DNA of 64,000 bases from Pseudohongiella sp. (GTDB lineage Bacteria > Pseudomonadota > Gammaproteobacteria > Pseudomonadales > Pseudohongiellaceae). Below the pieces are notes generated by a model. The model did not search any database and was not told where the DNA came from. It saw nothing but the letters and a program-made list of their open reading frames with translations. The translations under genes and the position numbers were made by a program. The stretch spans positions 1 through 64,000 of the forward strand of contig JAUSCD010000029.1 of NCBI GenBank assembly GCA_030651695.1, read 5' to 3'. Position 1 is the first letter of the stretch. Each line of letters begins with the position of its first letter. Below, piece by piece: positions 23,766 through 28,498 of this stretch.

Positions 23766-24259
23766 TTCAGGAAGACCAAAATACGGTTCGACTTGCGTTG
23801 CGCCGCCGGGCAATGGACTTGCTTGCCCGGCGCGAGCATACACGCCATGAATTGAGCAAAAAGTTATCAGCGTCGTTCCAAAGATCAGAGCAGGAAATTT
23901 GTCCTGAAGTATTAACTGAGGTACTGGATAAACTTGAGCAGGACAAGCTGCTCAGTGATTCACGTTTTACCGAATCTTATGTGAACGGTCGAATGAGCCG
24001 TGGTTATGGCCCTTTGTACATCCGACATAAATTGCGCGAAAAACAGGTTGATGGCGCGCTGCTGGATCACAATCTGGACCAGCTTGATCAGGAGCAATGG
24101 ATTGAGCAGTTGTCTGCTCTGATCAGGAGACGGATGGGGGATGCCGGATTGCCAGCCTGGGGCAGCAAAGAACATGCAAAACTTCAGCGTTTTATTTTGT
24201 CTCGCGGATTTACTTCTGCTCAATGGCGCGAAGTTGAAAAACGCTTCAAATCCCCATGA
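23762..24259 (+). CDS. recX: Regulatory protein RecX
   Basis: Modulates RecA filaments. The 165 residues have the helical-repeat signature: [19 protein letters not shown], then [27 protein letters not shown]. The TTG start overlaps the recA stop (TTGA). The 3' end overlaps the 3' end of the convergent globin gene by 14 bases, so no terminator fits between them. Confidence 0.93.
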
Positions 24260-24680
24260 TTTCAGGCCGTAACACGGCCAGCCTTTCCAGCAACCGATTT
24301 TGCGCTGATAATGCAATGCCGGTTTTGTCCATGGCGGCGATCAGATTTTCCACCACCGCATTAAACTCCGCGCTGTTGATGTCCATGCCGGCATGAACCT
24401 GAACCATACTGTCGCCAGTGTATTGACATGGACCGTCAGCGATCCAACAGAAATGTTCAATGATTTTTTCGCGGAATCGCTCAACATTGGAATCCATAAA
24501 ACGTGGAAGCACCCGGTTGTCGTAGGCGATTTCCATAACAAAATGGTCTGCCAGTTGTACTATCGTTTGCTGGCCGCCCAGTTCTTCGTACAGCGTGCTG
24601 CTGCCATTGTTGGCACAGGCCACCAACAAACTTAAAACGATAGCCATGCCTGCACGCAGAGTGCCCTGTTTCGCTGACAT
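24246..24680 (-). CDS. Lipoprotein-type group 1 truncated hemoglobin
   Basis: Predicted haem-binding globin anchored in the envelope. From the ATG at 24680 (GAGGT 9 bases upstream) there are 144 residues: a lipoprotein signal ending LVAC (C22), then the truncated-globin fold starting LYEELGG with proximal His96 in QVHAGM, and the YTG..S block. The position normally occupied by Tyr B10 appears to be Val48. Two cysteines (C78, C85) flank the E-helix region. A GTG at 24695 is a weaker start. Last gene of the minus-strand operon with the DUF3034 and cupredoxin genes. Ligand and function (oxygen, NO or sensing) are unknown. Confidence 0.85.
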   Translation of the reverse strand: MSAKQGTLRAGMAIVLSLLVACANNGSSTLYEELGGQQTIVQLADHFVMEIAYDNRVLPRFMDSNVERFREKIIEHFCWIADGPCQYTGDSMVQVHAGMDINSAEFNAVVENLIAAMDKTGIALSAQNRLLERLAVLRPEIMGI

Positions 24681-24695
24681 GAATGTATACCTCAC

Positions 24696-25580
24696 TCAAA
24701 AGCTCAGTTGCGCGGACAGATAAGCGCCGCGTTGATTGGGCGCGCCAGCTATTTCACCGAGATCGACCCACGCGGCGGTCAGAGAAACACGTTTGTTTGG
24801 AAACCAGGCAATAAAAAGATCTTTGGCATCGTCCTCTCTGAGCGCGGCAAGATTGTCAGGTTTTTGCCGGTACTCAGCGCCCACAACAATTTCGCGGGTC
24901 AGAAAAACAGCTGCCGCTATTTCACTGGTCCACTTACCACCCTGATCATCGCCGCCATATCCCAGAATGCCAAATTGATTGGCTTGGCCATATCTCATAT
25001 TGACATTGAGCAGCGTGGTCCTTGATGCGATGCCGTTCAACCAGGCTTTGGCAAAACTGACGGTATAGTCAGAGCCGCCGGTATGGTCTGCACCAACAGC
25101 GCGTGCCAGCCCCTTGTCGCGTAGACTGCCATGCTCCATACCAACGGAAACTTGTGGGGCGTTTTCAAAAATGATATCCCCGAATAGTCTGAATTTGACG
25201 CCGGTTTTATCCTGTCTGACCCGCAGATCTGCAGATTTGATCACAAAGTCCTGTCTGGCGTAGCTGACCTCCACACGATTTCCAAAACTAAGGGCGCCAC
25301 CACTCACACTCAGTTCATAGTCATCTACGTCAACACGGGTTAAAAATGCAGAGCCGCCGCGTTGTCCTGCATCAGCATAACTGCCAAGAGTGGCCCACGG
25401 GATCAAGCCGCCACCGCTGGCGCCAGAAATACTGGTGACTCCGCCGGTGCCTGCAATTCGGCCATCACGTTTGAGGGCGCTGTTATCCTGAGCGTGTACA
25501 AACGGCGGGGTTAGGGCAAAACAGCAGAAGAAGCTGACAACCACCATTTTTTTTGCTGCGCCTGTTGTAGTGCCTGTCAC
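24696..25580 (-). CDS. DUF3034 family outer-membrane protein
   Basis: Unknown function. From a GTG at 25580, preceded by a near-perfect GGAGGT and only 2 bases after the cupredoxin stop, there are 294 residues: signal peptide with a cleavage site near VHAQ, a Gly/Ser-rich region, then alternating hydrophobic strands ending AYLSAQLSF, the C-terminal Phe signal typical of outer-membrane beta-barrels. The family assignment (DUF3034) is from recognition of the GGLIPWATLG...SFLTRVDVDDYEL-like pattern. It lies in an operon between a cupredoxin and a lipoprotein globin. Confidence 0.72.
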   Translation of the reverse strand: MTGTTTGAAKKMVVVSFFCCFALTPPFVHAQDNSALKRDGRIAGTGGVTSISGASGGGLIPWATLGSYADAGQRGGSAFLTRVDVDDYELSVSGGALSFGNRVEVSYARQDFVIKSADLRVRQDKTGVKFRLFGDIIFENAPQVSVGMEHGSLRDKGLARAVGADHTGGSDYTVSFAKAWLNGIASRTTLLNVNMRYGQANQFGILGYGGDDQGGKWTSEIAAAVFLTREIVVGAEYRQKPDNLAALREDDAKDLFIAWFPNKRVSLTAAWVDLGEIAGAPNQRGAYLSAQLSF

Positions 25581-25582
25581 GC

Positions 25583-26296
25583 TCAGACCTCCGGCACCAG
25601 GGCTCTGAATCCGAAGCGTGCTTCGGGTGAGCGCACAGGTAAACTGACTCGCAACTGGCCGCCCTCGGGCGTTTCGGTGACATCGATTGCGAAACGATTG
25701 TCGGGAGTCTGAATCCAGGGATGCCATACGCTCAAGGTGCCGGGACTGGCTGATAGTCCGGCGAGTGTCAGATTGCCGTGCTCATCGCTGATAGCACTGG
25801 AAGCGGACTGACTGACGTAGATGTAGGCCACCATGCTGTCGTGAATATTGCAGCCCAGTACTGCAATGCCCGGTTTGTCGAACAGCACAGGCTCAATACT
25901 TTCGTCTGCATACAGTGGCGTGGAAAACTGTTTGATATCGGAGAACGAATAAACATGGTGACGAACGTTGTCGCTGTTCGGAAAATTCACCGACTGACCG
26001 ACTTCTATCAGCAGAACCATAGGGACAAAGCGTCGTTCAATCTGATCGATGACAGCAACAGGCGCGGAAGCGGCGCTGGTTGCTGTGGTGCCAGCCTGAT
26101 CAACGCTCAGTTCGATAACAGCACCTGCCACCGGATTTTCCTGTTCATCGACTAACACCAGGGTTATATCAAATGCCTGCGACTGAGCAGTCCAGCCCAA
26201 CGCAAGAGAACCTGAAATGATGCATACGTTTATGTATGACAGCCGGGCGCTTATAGCGGCCACCATGTGTCGGGAAGAGTGTAAATACTCTCGCAT
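25583..26296 (-). CDS. Exported cupredoxin-like protein (methylamine-utilization-type)
   Basis: Predicted periplasmic type 1 copper protein, 237 residues. After a signal segment (about 20-42, ending QAF) comes a beta-rich region with candidate copper ligands: His in VRHHVYSF and Cys, His and Met in GCNIHDSM (C-x2-H-x2-M). A C-terminal Ig-like or carboxypeptidase-regulatory-like part follows. Such proteins are often annotated as methylamine utilization proteins, but no mau genes are present here. AGGT lies 9 bases before the ATG. First gene of the operon with DUF3034 and globin, divergent from the cyclase. Natural partner unknown. Confidence 0.75.
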   Translation of the reverse strand: MREYLHSSRHMVAAISARLSYINVCIISGSLALGWTAQSQAFDITLVLVDEQENPVAGAVIELSVDQAGTTATSAASAPVAVIDQIERRFVPMVLLIEVGQSVNFPNSDNVRHHVYSFSDIKQFSTPLYADESIEPVLFDKPGIAVLGCNIHDSMVAYIYVSQSASSAISDEHGNLTLAGLSASPGTLSVWHPWIQTPDNRFAIDVTETPEGGQLRVSLPVRSPEARFGFRALVPEV

Positions 26297-26385
26297 AGGT
26301 TACGTACCTGCGTGTGTGGCCAGACCTCCATTGTCGCGGGCACGTTAATTGGTGTTTTGTCACTGACTCGCCAAAGTTGGGTCAG

Positions 26386-26414
26386 TTGTTATTAAGACGA
26401 ATTCTGCCTATCTT
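26386..26414 (+). promoter_or_regulatory. Candidate promoter of the adenylate cyclase gene
   Basis: TTGTTA (26386-26391), exact 17-base spacer, TATCTT (26409-26414), 33 bases before the ATG at 26447. An inverted repeat TTGAAT-CA-ATTCAA (26421-26434) lies at the predicted transcription start and could be an operator. Confidence 0.4.
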
Positions 26415-26446
26415 ATGACGTTGAATCAATTCAAATCGGACCCTTG

Positions 26447-28498
26447 ATGCGCCTGGTAAAACAAACAACCCAGCTATTGCGCCTGCCAGTCAGCAGTATC
26501 CGGTCCCGCCTGATAATTTTTTTATTGCTGCTTATGTTGCCGGTGCTTGCGGGTATCTACTGGTTTGTCAGTCAGGAAAACCAGCGATATACCGACGAAA
26601 CCATCAATTCATACCTCGCTATCGGCACGCAGGTGTTCGAATTTAGCCGCACTGAGCATATCAACACACTTCTGACCGTCAGCAGCGCACTGACGCGCGA
26701 CTGGGGTTTCAGAAACGCCTTTGGTGCTGCAGATCAGGCCACGATACTGGACGCCGCAGAGAATCTGCTGATGCGCTCGTTTGAGGCCGCAGACGTGATG
26801 CTGATTTCCGATATGCAGGGGCGCGTGATTGTTGATACCGCAGACCAGGGATTTGAACAATTGTCCGGAAGCTGGCAGGCGTTGATGGATCGCGCTGCGT
26901 CCAGCAACGACGGCGTTGCCGAGGCCGTGCTGACCATTGCGCAGAAACCCTATCAGGTGACAGTGATTCCTTTGTTTTTGCCAGCCCCGGTTGCCTGGAT
27001 ATTTGCCGGTTTTCCGCTCGATGACAAGTTTGTGCAAAACATCAAACGCACCACTGCGTCCGACGTTTCTGTGCTGCGTTACTCTGGTGATATTGAGTCT
27101 CCGGTTACAGGCACAGTCATCGCGTCAACATTGTCCGGGCGCGATGCCGATTTGACGTTGAGTCAACTTGATCCCACACAGATCCGTGACACGCAAAGAA
27201 TCCGGTTGCAAGACGCAGAGTACGGCACGCTCCTGAGGCCTCTGTCGGCAGATACTGATCAGGGTGAATTGATTCTGGCAGTGATCCAGCGGTCTTATCG
27301 TGAAAATGAAGCCAACCTGGCCCAGCTGCGTGATCGTCTTTTCCAGTTCTCGCTGGCAGTTGTATGTTTAAGCCTGGTTGCTGTGATCATTCTGGCCAGA
27401 AGCTTTACGCGTCCGATAGTGATACTGGCAGACCGGGTCAAAATGATAGAGCAGGGAGACTACAAAGCAGGCGCTGCGCGCCGCTCTGCCGGCGGCGCCA
27501 ATGATGAGCTTGCGCAACTGGATTCATCTGTTACGGCCATGGCCAAAGGTCTTGCCGAGCGGGAGAACATGCGTGATCTGCTAGGCAAGGTGGTATCTCC
27601 CCAGATTGCCGCGGAGCTTCTTGCCAGCCAGATTGAGTTGGGGGGTGAGGAGCGTGTGGTCACCGTGCTGTTTGCCGATATACGCGGTTTTACTGCGCTA
27701 AGCGAACAACAGACGCCCTCGCAAACCTTGCATATGCTCAATCTTTGTTTCGAGCAGATATGCACTGCCATAGAAGACAGTGGCGGAGTCGTGGATAAAT
27801 TCACCGGGGATGCGGTGATGGCTCTGTTTGGTGCGCCGGTGATGCACGCTGATGATGCCGTGCGGGCAGGCCAGGCGATTGCGGCGATTGAGGCTGCGCT
27901 TGAGAGATTGAAAGATGATCCGCGGTTGCCTGCCGCCGGACTGTCCATCGGGCTTGGCATACACACCGGGCTTGTTGTTGCCGGCAACATGGGGTCACAA
28001 AACAGGATGAACTACACCGTTATCGGTGATGCCGTGAATCTGGCGGCAAGACTGGAAAGCCTGACCCGCGTTTATGGTGTATCCAATCTGATCAGTGAAG
28101 AGTTTGTTGCTGCAATGGGGGACAGCGCCAACGATTTTGATATACAGGAGCTGGATCTGGTGCGGGTCAAAGGCAAACGTGAAACTTCCCGCCTGCTAAC
28201 CATGATAGGACCGGCTGCATCAGCGCCGGCTGGCAACCGTCTAACAGCACCCGCTACCGGGCAGCCGAAAAGTTCTGGTGCGGATGCTGATGGCAGCCGT
28301 GCCCGCTTTGATCAGATGCTCAATTGCTACAGAAACGGGCAGTGGGAGCAGGCGCTTGATATACTGCGCGCTCTTGAAAGCGAAGACAGCGGAGCTCTGC
28401 CATCAGGTTTGTATCGCATGTACCAGCACAGAATACTGGAGTTGCGCGCCAATCCGCCCGCAAACTGGGATGGTGTGTTCGATTTTGCACAAAAATGA
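26447..28498 (+). CDS. Membrane-anchored class III adenylate cyclase with HAMP domain
   Basis: Predicted to make cAMP in response to a periplasmic signal. The 683 residues comprise a membrane helix (about 24-44), a periplasmic sensor region of some 260 residues (Cache-like by layout), a second helix (about 304-326), a HAMP linker, and the catalytic domain. Metal Asp411 (in FADIRGFT) and Asp455 (in KFTGDAVMALFG), Lys451 and Thr524 (in NYTVIGDAVNLAAR) give the Lys/Thr adenine-selecting pair of class IIIb cyclases, so the enzyme looks active. The C-terminal 80 residues resemble a helical repeat. ATG 26447 is chosen over the adjacent TTG. It is divergent from the cupredoxin-DUF3034-globin operon. 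Confidence 0.88.
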   Translation: MRLVKQTTQLLRLPVSSIRSRLIIFLLLLMLPVLAGIYWFVSQENQRYTDETINSYLAIGTQVFEFSRTEHINTLLTVSSALTRDWGFRNAFGAADQATILDAAENLLMRSFEAADVMLISDMQGRVIVDTADQGFEQLSGSWQALMDRAASSNDGVAEAVLTIAQKPYQVTVIPLFLPAPVAWIFAGFPLDDKFVQNIKRTTASDVSVLRYSGDIESPVTGTVIASTLSGRDADLTLSQLDPTQIRDTQRIRLQDAEYGTLLRPLSADTDQGELILAVIQRSYRENEANLAQLRDRLFQFSLAVVCLSLVAVIILARSFTRPIVILADRVKMIEQGDYKAGAARRSAGGANDELAQLDSSVTAMAKGLAERENMRDLLGKVVSPQIAAELLASQIELGGEERVVTVLFADIRGFTALSEQQTPSQTLHMLNLCFEQICTAIEDSGGVVDKFTGDAVMALFGAPVMHADDAVRAGQAIAAIEAALERLKDDPRLPAAGLSIGLGIHTGLVVAGNMGSQNRMNYTVIGDAVNLAARLESLTRVYGVSNLISEEFVAAMGDSANDFDIQELDLVRVKGKRETSRLLTMIGPAASAPAGNRLTAPATGQPKSSGADADGSRARFDQMLNCYRNGQWEQALDILRALESEDSGALPSGLYRMYQHRILELRANPPANWDGVFDFAQK

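Follow-up and report, generated by a model that had tools for sequence, protein, structure and literature searches.

Why should the genes of an exported globin, a predicted outer membrane barrel and an exported cupredoxin lie next to the gene of a membrane-bound adenylate cyclase? The question is raised by a locus of Pseudohongiella sp. within a stretch of 64,000 nucleotides (nt) (contig JAUSCD010000029.1, positions 1 to 64,000; henceforth the window), for which the original prediction had proposed that these four genes belong together. Comparison with related loci and genomes bears this out: the module is made of two tight gene pairs, one of a DUF3034 gene (the barrel) and the globin gene, the other of the cupredoxin gene and that of a membrane receptor, and the two pairs are joined at most DUF3034 loci. 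It is probable, with appreciable reservation, that the four proteins constitute an envelope signalling module of barrel, globin, cupredoxin and a receptor with exchangeable output.

In the window, the four open reading frames (ORFs) lie where they had been predicted, with the cyclase facing away from the three others; the latter are transcribed from the minus strand in the order cupredoxin, DUF3034, truncated globin, and the receptor is encoded on the plus strand. The tight operon with gaps of 2 and 15 bases holds with the start codons GTG 25580 and ATG 24680. The features of the locus are:

24246..24695, minus strand: exported group 1 truncated globin (putative), with lipobox LLVAC, cysteine pair C83/C90 and proximal His101
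24615-24617, minus strand: cysteine of the globin lipobox LLVAC
24680, minus strand: likely start ATG of the globin, leaving the 15-base gap to the DUF3034 gene
24696..25580, minus strand: DUF3034 protein (PF11231), predicted 12-strand outer membrane barrel with signal peptide
24708-25448, minus strand: DUF3034 family domain
25580, minus strand: start GTG of the DUF3034 gene, leaving the 2-base gap to the cupredoxin gene and a credible signal peptide (the ORF opens at 25727)
25583..26296, minus strand: exported cupredoxin with putative type-1 copper ligands (loop CxxHxxM and an upstream His)
26297..26443, no strand: divergent intergenic region between cupredoxin and cyclase genes
26444..28498, plus strand: membrane receptor of 684 amino acids (aa), predicted as transmembrane helix (TM), dCache-type periplasmic sensor, TM, probable HAMP-like linker, class III cyclase
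26486..27400, plus strand: conserved sensor part (TM1, dCache, TM2), the piece common to GGDEF-EAL and kinase receptors elsewhere
27656..28186, plus strand: putative catalytic domain of a class III cyclase (PF00211), with the motifs for metal Asp, Lys/Thr and Asn/Arg

Two gene pairs joined at most DUF3034 loci

The loci compared comprise 42 gathered by DUF3034, 39 from 38 other genomes of the 398-genome sample described below, the window and its copy L001; removal of L001, L055 and L059 as identical copies reduced these 83 to 80 non-redundant DUF3034 loci. In every one of them the globin gene adjoins that of DUF3034 on the same strand, and in Massilia (L039) and Pseudoduganella (L041) the two are fused to one frame of 447 aa with the globin first; the pairing of DUF3034 with the exported globin is near-obligate. 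A second copy of this pair (L082; G078:C3), in several pieces and with in-frame stops, is present in the 2.3-Mb genome G078. Near DUF3034, a cupredoxin is encoded in 66 and a receptor (E < 1e-30) in 62 of the 80 loci; L004, L032, L038 and L141 have no more than 0.2 to 2.5 kb of sequence upstream of the genes, so that some genes counted as absent from them are cut off by the contig end. Nine gene arrangements occur, including ones with genes absent, the commonest being cupredoxin>receptor>DUF3034>globin (50 loci); the divergent order of the window is found in three (window, L002, L003). Within 7 kb, no fifth ORF family is present at more than 8 of the 80 loci, apart from ORF clusters of 37, 34 and 24 loci which, judged by position, are shadow frames over the four genes.

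The association extends to whole genomes. Of 398 genomes sampled evenly from the phylum, with that of the window among them, 39 have DUF3034, and of these 39 also encode the globin, 38 the cupredoxin and 37 the receptor; for the 359 genomes without DUF3034 the respective numbers are 2, 33 and 14 (thresholds: globin at least 140 bits, a line set after the gap down to 96.6 bits was seen; cupredoxin E ≤ 1e-8; receptor E ≤ 1e-15; scores cover only the best first-look candidates). With the own genome excluded, globin, cupredoxin and receptor are present in 38/38, 37/38 and 36/38 of the DUF3034 genomes, which corresponds to Fisher p values, uncorrected for kinship, of 4e-51, 2e-31 and 3e-37. Because DUF3034 and globin lie side by side at all 80 loci and because the families co-occur genome-wide, the clustering of the four genes is not due to chance. 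Pairwise distances of the four proteins are correlated over 60 loci (0.68 to 0.85), a result that common descent could also produce by itself. Members of many gammaproteobacterial genera possess the module, as do Burkholderiales (Massilia, Pseudoduganella) and bacteria of further classes of the phylum; a restriction to close relatives, named at the outset as what would speak against a common system, is thereby refuted, and the co-occurrence across genera and classes supports the proposal of one module. Mere synteny of genes that have no joint function could appeal to the gene order common to close relatives and to the lack of a kinship correction; it is extremely improbable in view of nine arrangements, several classes and co-occurrence even when the genes are unlinked.

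Cupredoxin and receptor form the other pair. At the 57 loci where both genes are co-directional (the spacing measures exclude L036, where the receptor frame is in two parts), the aligned N-terminus of the receptor lies at most 60 bases from the cupredoxin stop codon in 55 (median 7), and it precedes that stop in 18, so that at least 18 gene pairs overlap. In the 398-genome survey, 47 of 58 receptor matches have a cupredoxin match within 1.5 kb, and 47 of 62 cupredoxin matches with E ≤ 1e-20 have a receptor match within the same distance. Where cupredoxin and receptor do not stand beside DUF3034, they tend to be neighbours at another place: of eight named genomes whose DUF3034 locus lacks cupredoxin and/or receptor, all eight encode a cupredoxin and seven a receptor, the two adjoining in those seven (two of the eight loci, L032 and L038, end near the genes, so that the pair might actually lie next to them). 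In L044 and L045 the cupredoxin lies between two same-strand receptors (receptor>cupredoxin>receptor>DUF3034>globin).

Globin, barrel and cupredoxin

The globin of the window matches PF01152 (61.8 bits), its best matches in the PDB are group 1 globins, and its proximal His101 (position F8) is found in 79 of 79 aligned sequences (one gap); by profile and proximal histidine, the module globin can be classed as a group 1 truncated haemoglobin. The cysteine pair C83/C90 is invariant in the alignment of the locus globins. The globin had originally been predicted to be lipidated and truncated, which stands for the window, with its PF01152 match and its lipobox; as a general trait lipidation does not hold, the lipobox pattern being present in 61 of the 80 loci (one miss, L020, nearly fits). 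The HbN-type globins, which bind O2 or act as NO (nitric oxide) dioxygenases, have Tyr B10 and Gln E11 as polar distal pair. In the module globins (register from an ungapped alignment to 1idr; n = 80), B10 is Ile in 37, Leu in 21, Val in 18, Met in two, and Thr and Asn in one each, and E11 is Leu in 55, Phe in 20 and Ile in five; the absence of Tyr B10 and Gln E11 from all 80 argues against a globin of this type. With Mycobacterium HbN the module globin shares the profile (match about 1e-23), the proximal histidine and the GGP..YTG motif; it differs in its export, its cysteine pair and its distal residues. Exported truncated globins are not new as such, since periplasmic cytochromes with truncated haemoglobin domains are described for cable bacteria (PMC11976967). 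Another group of exported truncated globins with a similar Cys...GG(P/D)C motif, scoring 79-87 bits with the module globin profile, is encoded in L116, L118 and L119, where the stretch contains no DUF3034 match.

For DUF3034 the original call is confirmed: the ORF 24696-25727 (minus strand) matches PF11231 with 307.9 bits (gathering score 25), and AlphaFold2 models 12 strands (predicted local distance difference test, pLDDT, 85.1), so that a 12-strand barrel of the outer membrane is predicted. The outer membrane channels FapF, KdgM and NanC match this fold at 5-10% identity, a likeness of fold which is no proof of function. One mention of DUF3034 in the literature stands in the legend of a retron figure that otherwise concerns DUF3037. 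PHROGs and NCBIfam scans gave no match for any of the three exported proteins.

The cupredoxin of the window has by itself no Pfam match above the cut-off. A profile of 41 sequences matches the cupredoxin domains of copper nitrite reductase (1e-5, 5e-4), blue-copper protein and, weakly, amicyanin (E 0.03-0.09), and the copper ligands are invariant, the first His in 65/65 aligned sequences (one gap), Cys, His and Met in 66/66; in agreement with the copper site originally called, the ligand set His, Cys, His, Met argues for a type-1 cupredoxin. A narrow regular expression for the ligands fits 109 of 122 cupredoxin matches from all loci read, the listed misses mostly varying around the first His. 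Amicyanin has a similarly short CxxHxxM loop; the module protein resembles it and the nitrite reductase domains in the type-1 ligand set and is longer. A methylamine utilisation system, of which amicyanin would be indicative, was rejected, as methylamine dehydrogenase is not among the families that recur within 7 kb of the 80 loci. With such a protein in the module, copper loading itself might be the signal, globin and barrel serving the uptake of metal or haem. We regard this as quite unlikely: no copper-regulator motif stands upstream of 75 cupredoxins, the families recurring at the loci include neither copper pumps nor copper chaperones, and the conserved haem protein would be left unexplained.

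A constant sensor with exchangeable output

The membrane cyclase with a large periplasmic sensor, as originally predicted, is supported by a PF00211 match of 79.6 bits and by an AlphaFold2 model of the sensor region (pLDDT 91.2) that resembles Cache-type sensors; dCache_3 scores 25.4 bits, just below its cut-off of 25.7. The metal Asp, Lys/Thr and Asn/Arg residues are the catalytic motifs of class III adenylyl cyclases. They are present, including two metal Asp, in the window, L002 and L003, and by these motifs the catalytic domain of the window's receptor would be a class III adenylyl cyclase. What proved valid beyond the window is the sensor half; the cyclase domain occurs beside DUF3034, among the module loci read, only in the window's genus (window and eight other genomes), and the idea of an adenylate cyclase as fixed partner was dropped, since elsewhere the same sensor is connected to GGDEF-EAL or, once, to a protein kinase. 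The other objection named at the outset, an operon without the cyclase, therefore applies to the catalytic domain and not to the sensor. The outputs of the 62 module receptors, assigned by Pfam, are GGDEF-EAL in 58, class III cyclase in three and protein kinase in one. The EAL catalytic residues are complete in 57 of the 58 (exception: L040) and the GGDEF motif is intact in 16 (15 GGDEF, one SGDEF), which suggests that the usual output is probably breakdown of cyclic di-GMP (c-di-GMP). Among relatives, GGDEF-only receptors are found in L012, at a module locus, and in L162, with no cupredoxin found nearby; L104 has a kinase output, and in L108 and L109 a hybrid histidine kinase is encoded near a cupredoxin. 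Methylophaga encodes, downstream on the other strand, a further receptor that joins this sensor type to a GGDEF domain with GGEEF motif (L012:9188-10624, L022:9159-10601), so that opposing c-di-GMP enzymes may share one input.

As the output is exchangeable, the input is the conserved part, and the most likely flow of information is from the periplasm into the cell; outside-in signalling is deduced from the constancy of the periplasmic and membrane half of the receptor. The opposite direction would be that of a receptor like LapD, whose type signals inside-out and has a catalytically dead EAL domain: the EAL half would read c-di-GMP, and the sensor half would instruct cupredoxin, globin and barrel. 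In favour of this scheme, the GGDEF motif is degenerate in 42/58 receptors and a periplasmic partner exists; it is nevertheless very unlikely, because the complete EAL residue set argues against a LapD-type receptor and because cyclases, kinases, GGDEF domains alone and hybrid histidine kinases are also found as outputs of this sensor. Two other known receptor types were rejected. EAL proteins of the redox-controlled CSS-motif type have conserved periplasmic cysteines, and no such switch was found here, 34 of 49 sensor regions being without cysteine. Globin-coupled sensors, H-NOX and NosP have the haem domain inside the receptor or in the cytoplasm; here, the haem protein is a separate exported gene product, and no haem domain is among the Pfam matches of the 62 receptors. 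PADLOC matches to PycC cover the catalytic half of the receptor; in Pycsar defence, the PycC cyclase has an adjoining effector gene.

If the four proteins act as an outside-in signalling module, the globin would sit at the outer membrane on the periplasmic side of the barrel, and the cupredoxin would be the direct periplasmic partner of the receptor. The globin, with its invariant cysteine pair and a pocket deprived of the polar HbN residues at B10 and E11, might bind a diatomic ligand other than O2, NO being the first candidate, or shift its redox state; its altered state would alter the copper protein, which would switch the receptor, with a change of cyclic AMP (cAMP) in the window and a fall of c-di-GMP in most relatives as the outcome. 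In this explicit form, with a barrel-held haem globin that ignores O2 and reads NO, another gas or an oxidant at the cell boundary, and a cupredoxin that relays to interchangeable c-di-GMP, cAMP or phosphorylation receptors, the proposal is tentative and rather doubtful.

Several findings weigh against the signalling module. The globin residue at E14 is Gln or His in 65/80, so the pocket may not be wholly apolar, and in view of cupredoxin potentials electron exchange with the globin haem is uncertain. The two pairs are also met apart: in 15 of 62 cases a strong cupredoxin match has no receptor match within 1.5 kb, cupredoxin-receptor pairs occur in genomes without DUF3034 (and, at loci without it, in L085-L089, L093, L094, L096, L098 and L100-L106), and a globin in the absence of DUF3034 is encoded by G154 and G328. 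The unpaired cupredoxins and the pairs lacking DUF3034 show that each pair is more tightly bound within itself than to the other. A start codon within 30 bases of the cupredoxin stop (54/57) was dropped as evidence of coupling, as random positions give 83%, and so was the ATG-only measure (42/57 vs 62% in the control). Upstream of 75 cupredoxins there is no enrichment of known regulator motifs: patterns for FNR, CRP, NsrR, Fur, CueR and CopR-type sites have 0 to 4 matches each, near the 0 to about 1 expected from mononucleotide shuffles. Finally, just DUF3034 and globin are near each other at 11 of the 80 loci, G078 lacks cupredoxin and receptor, and G019 lacks the receptor, so that DUF3034-globin may have a function of its own. 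This last group would suit a unit of barrel, globin and cupredoxin that is mainly catalytic or protective (NO, peroxide or electron transfer at the outer membrane) and whose receptor merely adjusts cell behaviour meanwhile; truncated globins with NO or peroxidase chemistry are known. Such a unit is unlikely, though worth serious consideration: no enzyme family recurs at the loci, the globin pocket is without the distal pair at all of them, and the tight pairing of cupredoxin and receptor genes suggests signalling.

For the signalling module, the nearest working model in print is NspS-MbaA of Vibrio cholerae, where a periplasmic protein from an overlapping gene alters the output of a GGDEF-EAL membrane receptor (PMC8967002). 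The likeness lies in a periplasmic-partner gene that overlaps a GGDEF-EAL receptor gene; in contrast to the cupredoxin, NspS is a polyamine-binding protein, and in the passages on it no barrel or globin is named. In pairings of the NspS-MbaA and LuxPQ type an adjacent periplasmic partner binds the sensor; here, a sensor of such fold and gene adjacency were observed, and the cupredoxin may be a partner of this kind. A two-lobed Cache-like periplasmic sensor with histidine kinase output, controlled by a separate periplasmic partner of the sugar-binding-protein type, is also known. IsmP, iron-sensitive according to the title of its entry, is a membrane sensor of similar fold, with a Z score similar to that of many unrelated sensors; CitA ranks first at 15.4. 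Periplasmic-partner receptors would thus be familiar, and the parts at the input would be what is new. The module had been called undescribed, which fits the open-access literature: among the matches listed, in the text available, no description was found, and as subscription papers lie mostly outside this scope, the module may have been described before. DUF3034, so far a family without assigned function, gains a context and a testable role, and an exported haem protein and a copper protein are linked to control by c-di-GMP and cAMP; should the input be NO or redox, this would be a gas-sensing route outside the cytoplasm.

Replacement of the receptor in the window's family

DUF3034 is found in 19 of 59 genomes of the window's family, its own included; neighbourhoods were read for 16 of the other 18, and in part for a 17th (G453). 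In the window's genus, G408 has retained cupredoxin>EAL receptor>DUF3034>globin, and eight other genomes have the cyclase receptor divergent as in the window. In seven genomes of the sister genus g217 the order is cupredoxin>DUF3034>globin; no receptor was found at this place, and each of the seven has a cupredoxin>cyclase-receptor pair apart from it. G453 has cupredoxin>EAL receptor>DUF3034 (contig end) as well as a separate cupredoxin>cyclase pair. In quick trees with support from the Shimodaira-Hasegawa-like approximate likelihood ratio test (SH-aLRT) only, the cyclase receptors of the window's clade join those of the separate g217 pairs with support 99, whereas the EAL receptor of G408 falls outside this group; likewise with support 99, the cupredoxin of the window joins those of the g217 modules. 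Both trees and the neighbourhoods lead to the conclusion that the EAL receptor gave way, in the window's genus, to a cyclase receptor from the cupredoxin-cyclase lineage; the genus is a natural swap experiment, with the same envelope parts and a different messenger.

The own genome encodes a second, orphan cupredoxin of the same family (L083:8356-9096; G000:C23), next to a gene of the PhyH family and an exported 295-aa ORF that matches nothing in Pfam and by eye resembles a barrel; in the tree it is nearest, without support, to cupredoxins of cupredoxin-cyclase pairs and is possibly a remnant of such a pair. Orphan cupredoxins in L084, L090, L091, L097 and L099 adjoin exported ORFs of some 400 aa that by eye resemble porins; among the four compared with Pfam, three have no match and that of L090 a weak one to Porin_4 below the cut-off.

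Scans of the window with Rfam and for tRNAs gave no matches, and promoter and terminator signals in the divergent region are no higher than in shuffles. This region contains an inverted repeat, TTGAAT-CA-ATTCAA, directly upstream of the cyclase (26421-26434) and a 9-pair stem-loop (26362-26386); in the genus alignment just one short stretch is conserved, and neither repeat evidently so. The four-gene set is flanked by recX, in a tail-to-tail overlap with the globin gene, and by a DUF1015 gene downstream of the cyclase, followed by that of a family 9 glycosyltransferase (Pfam).

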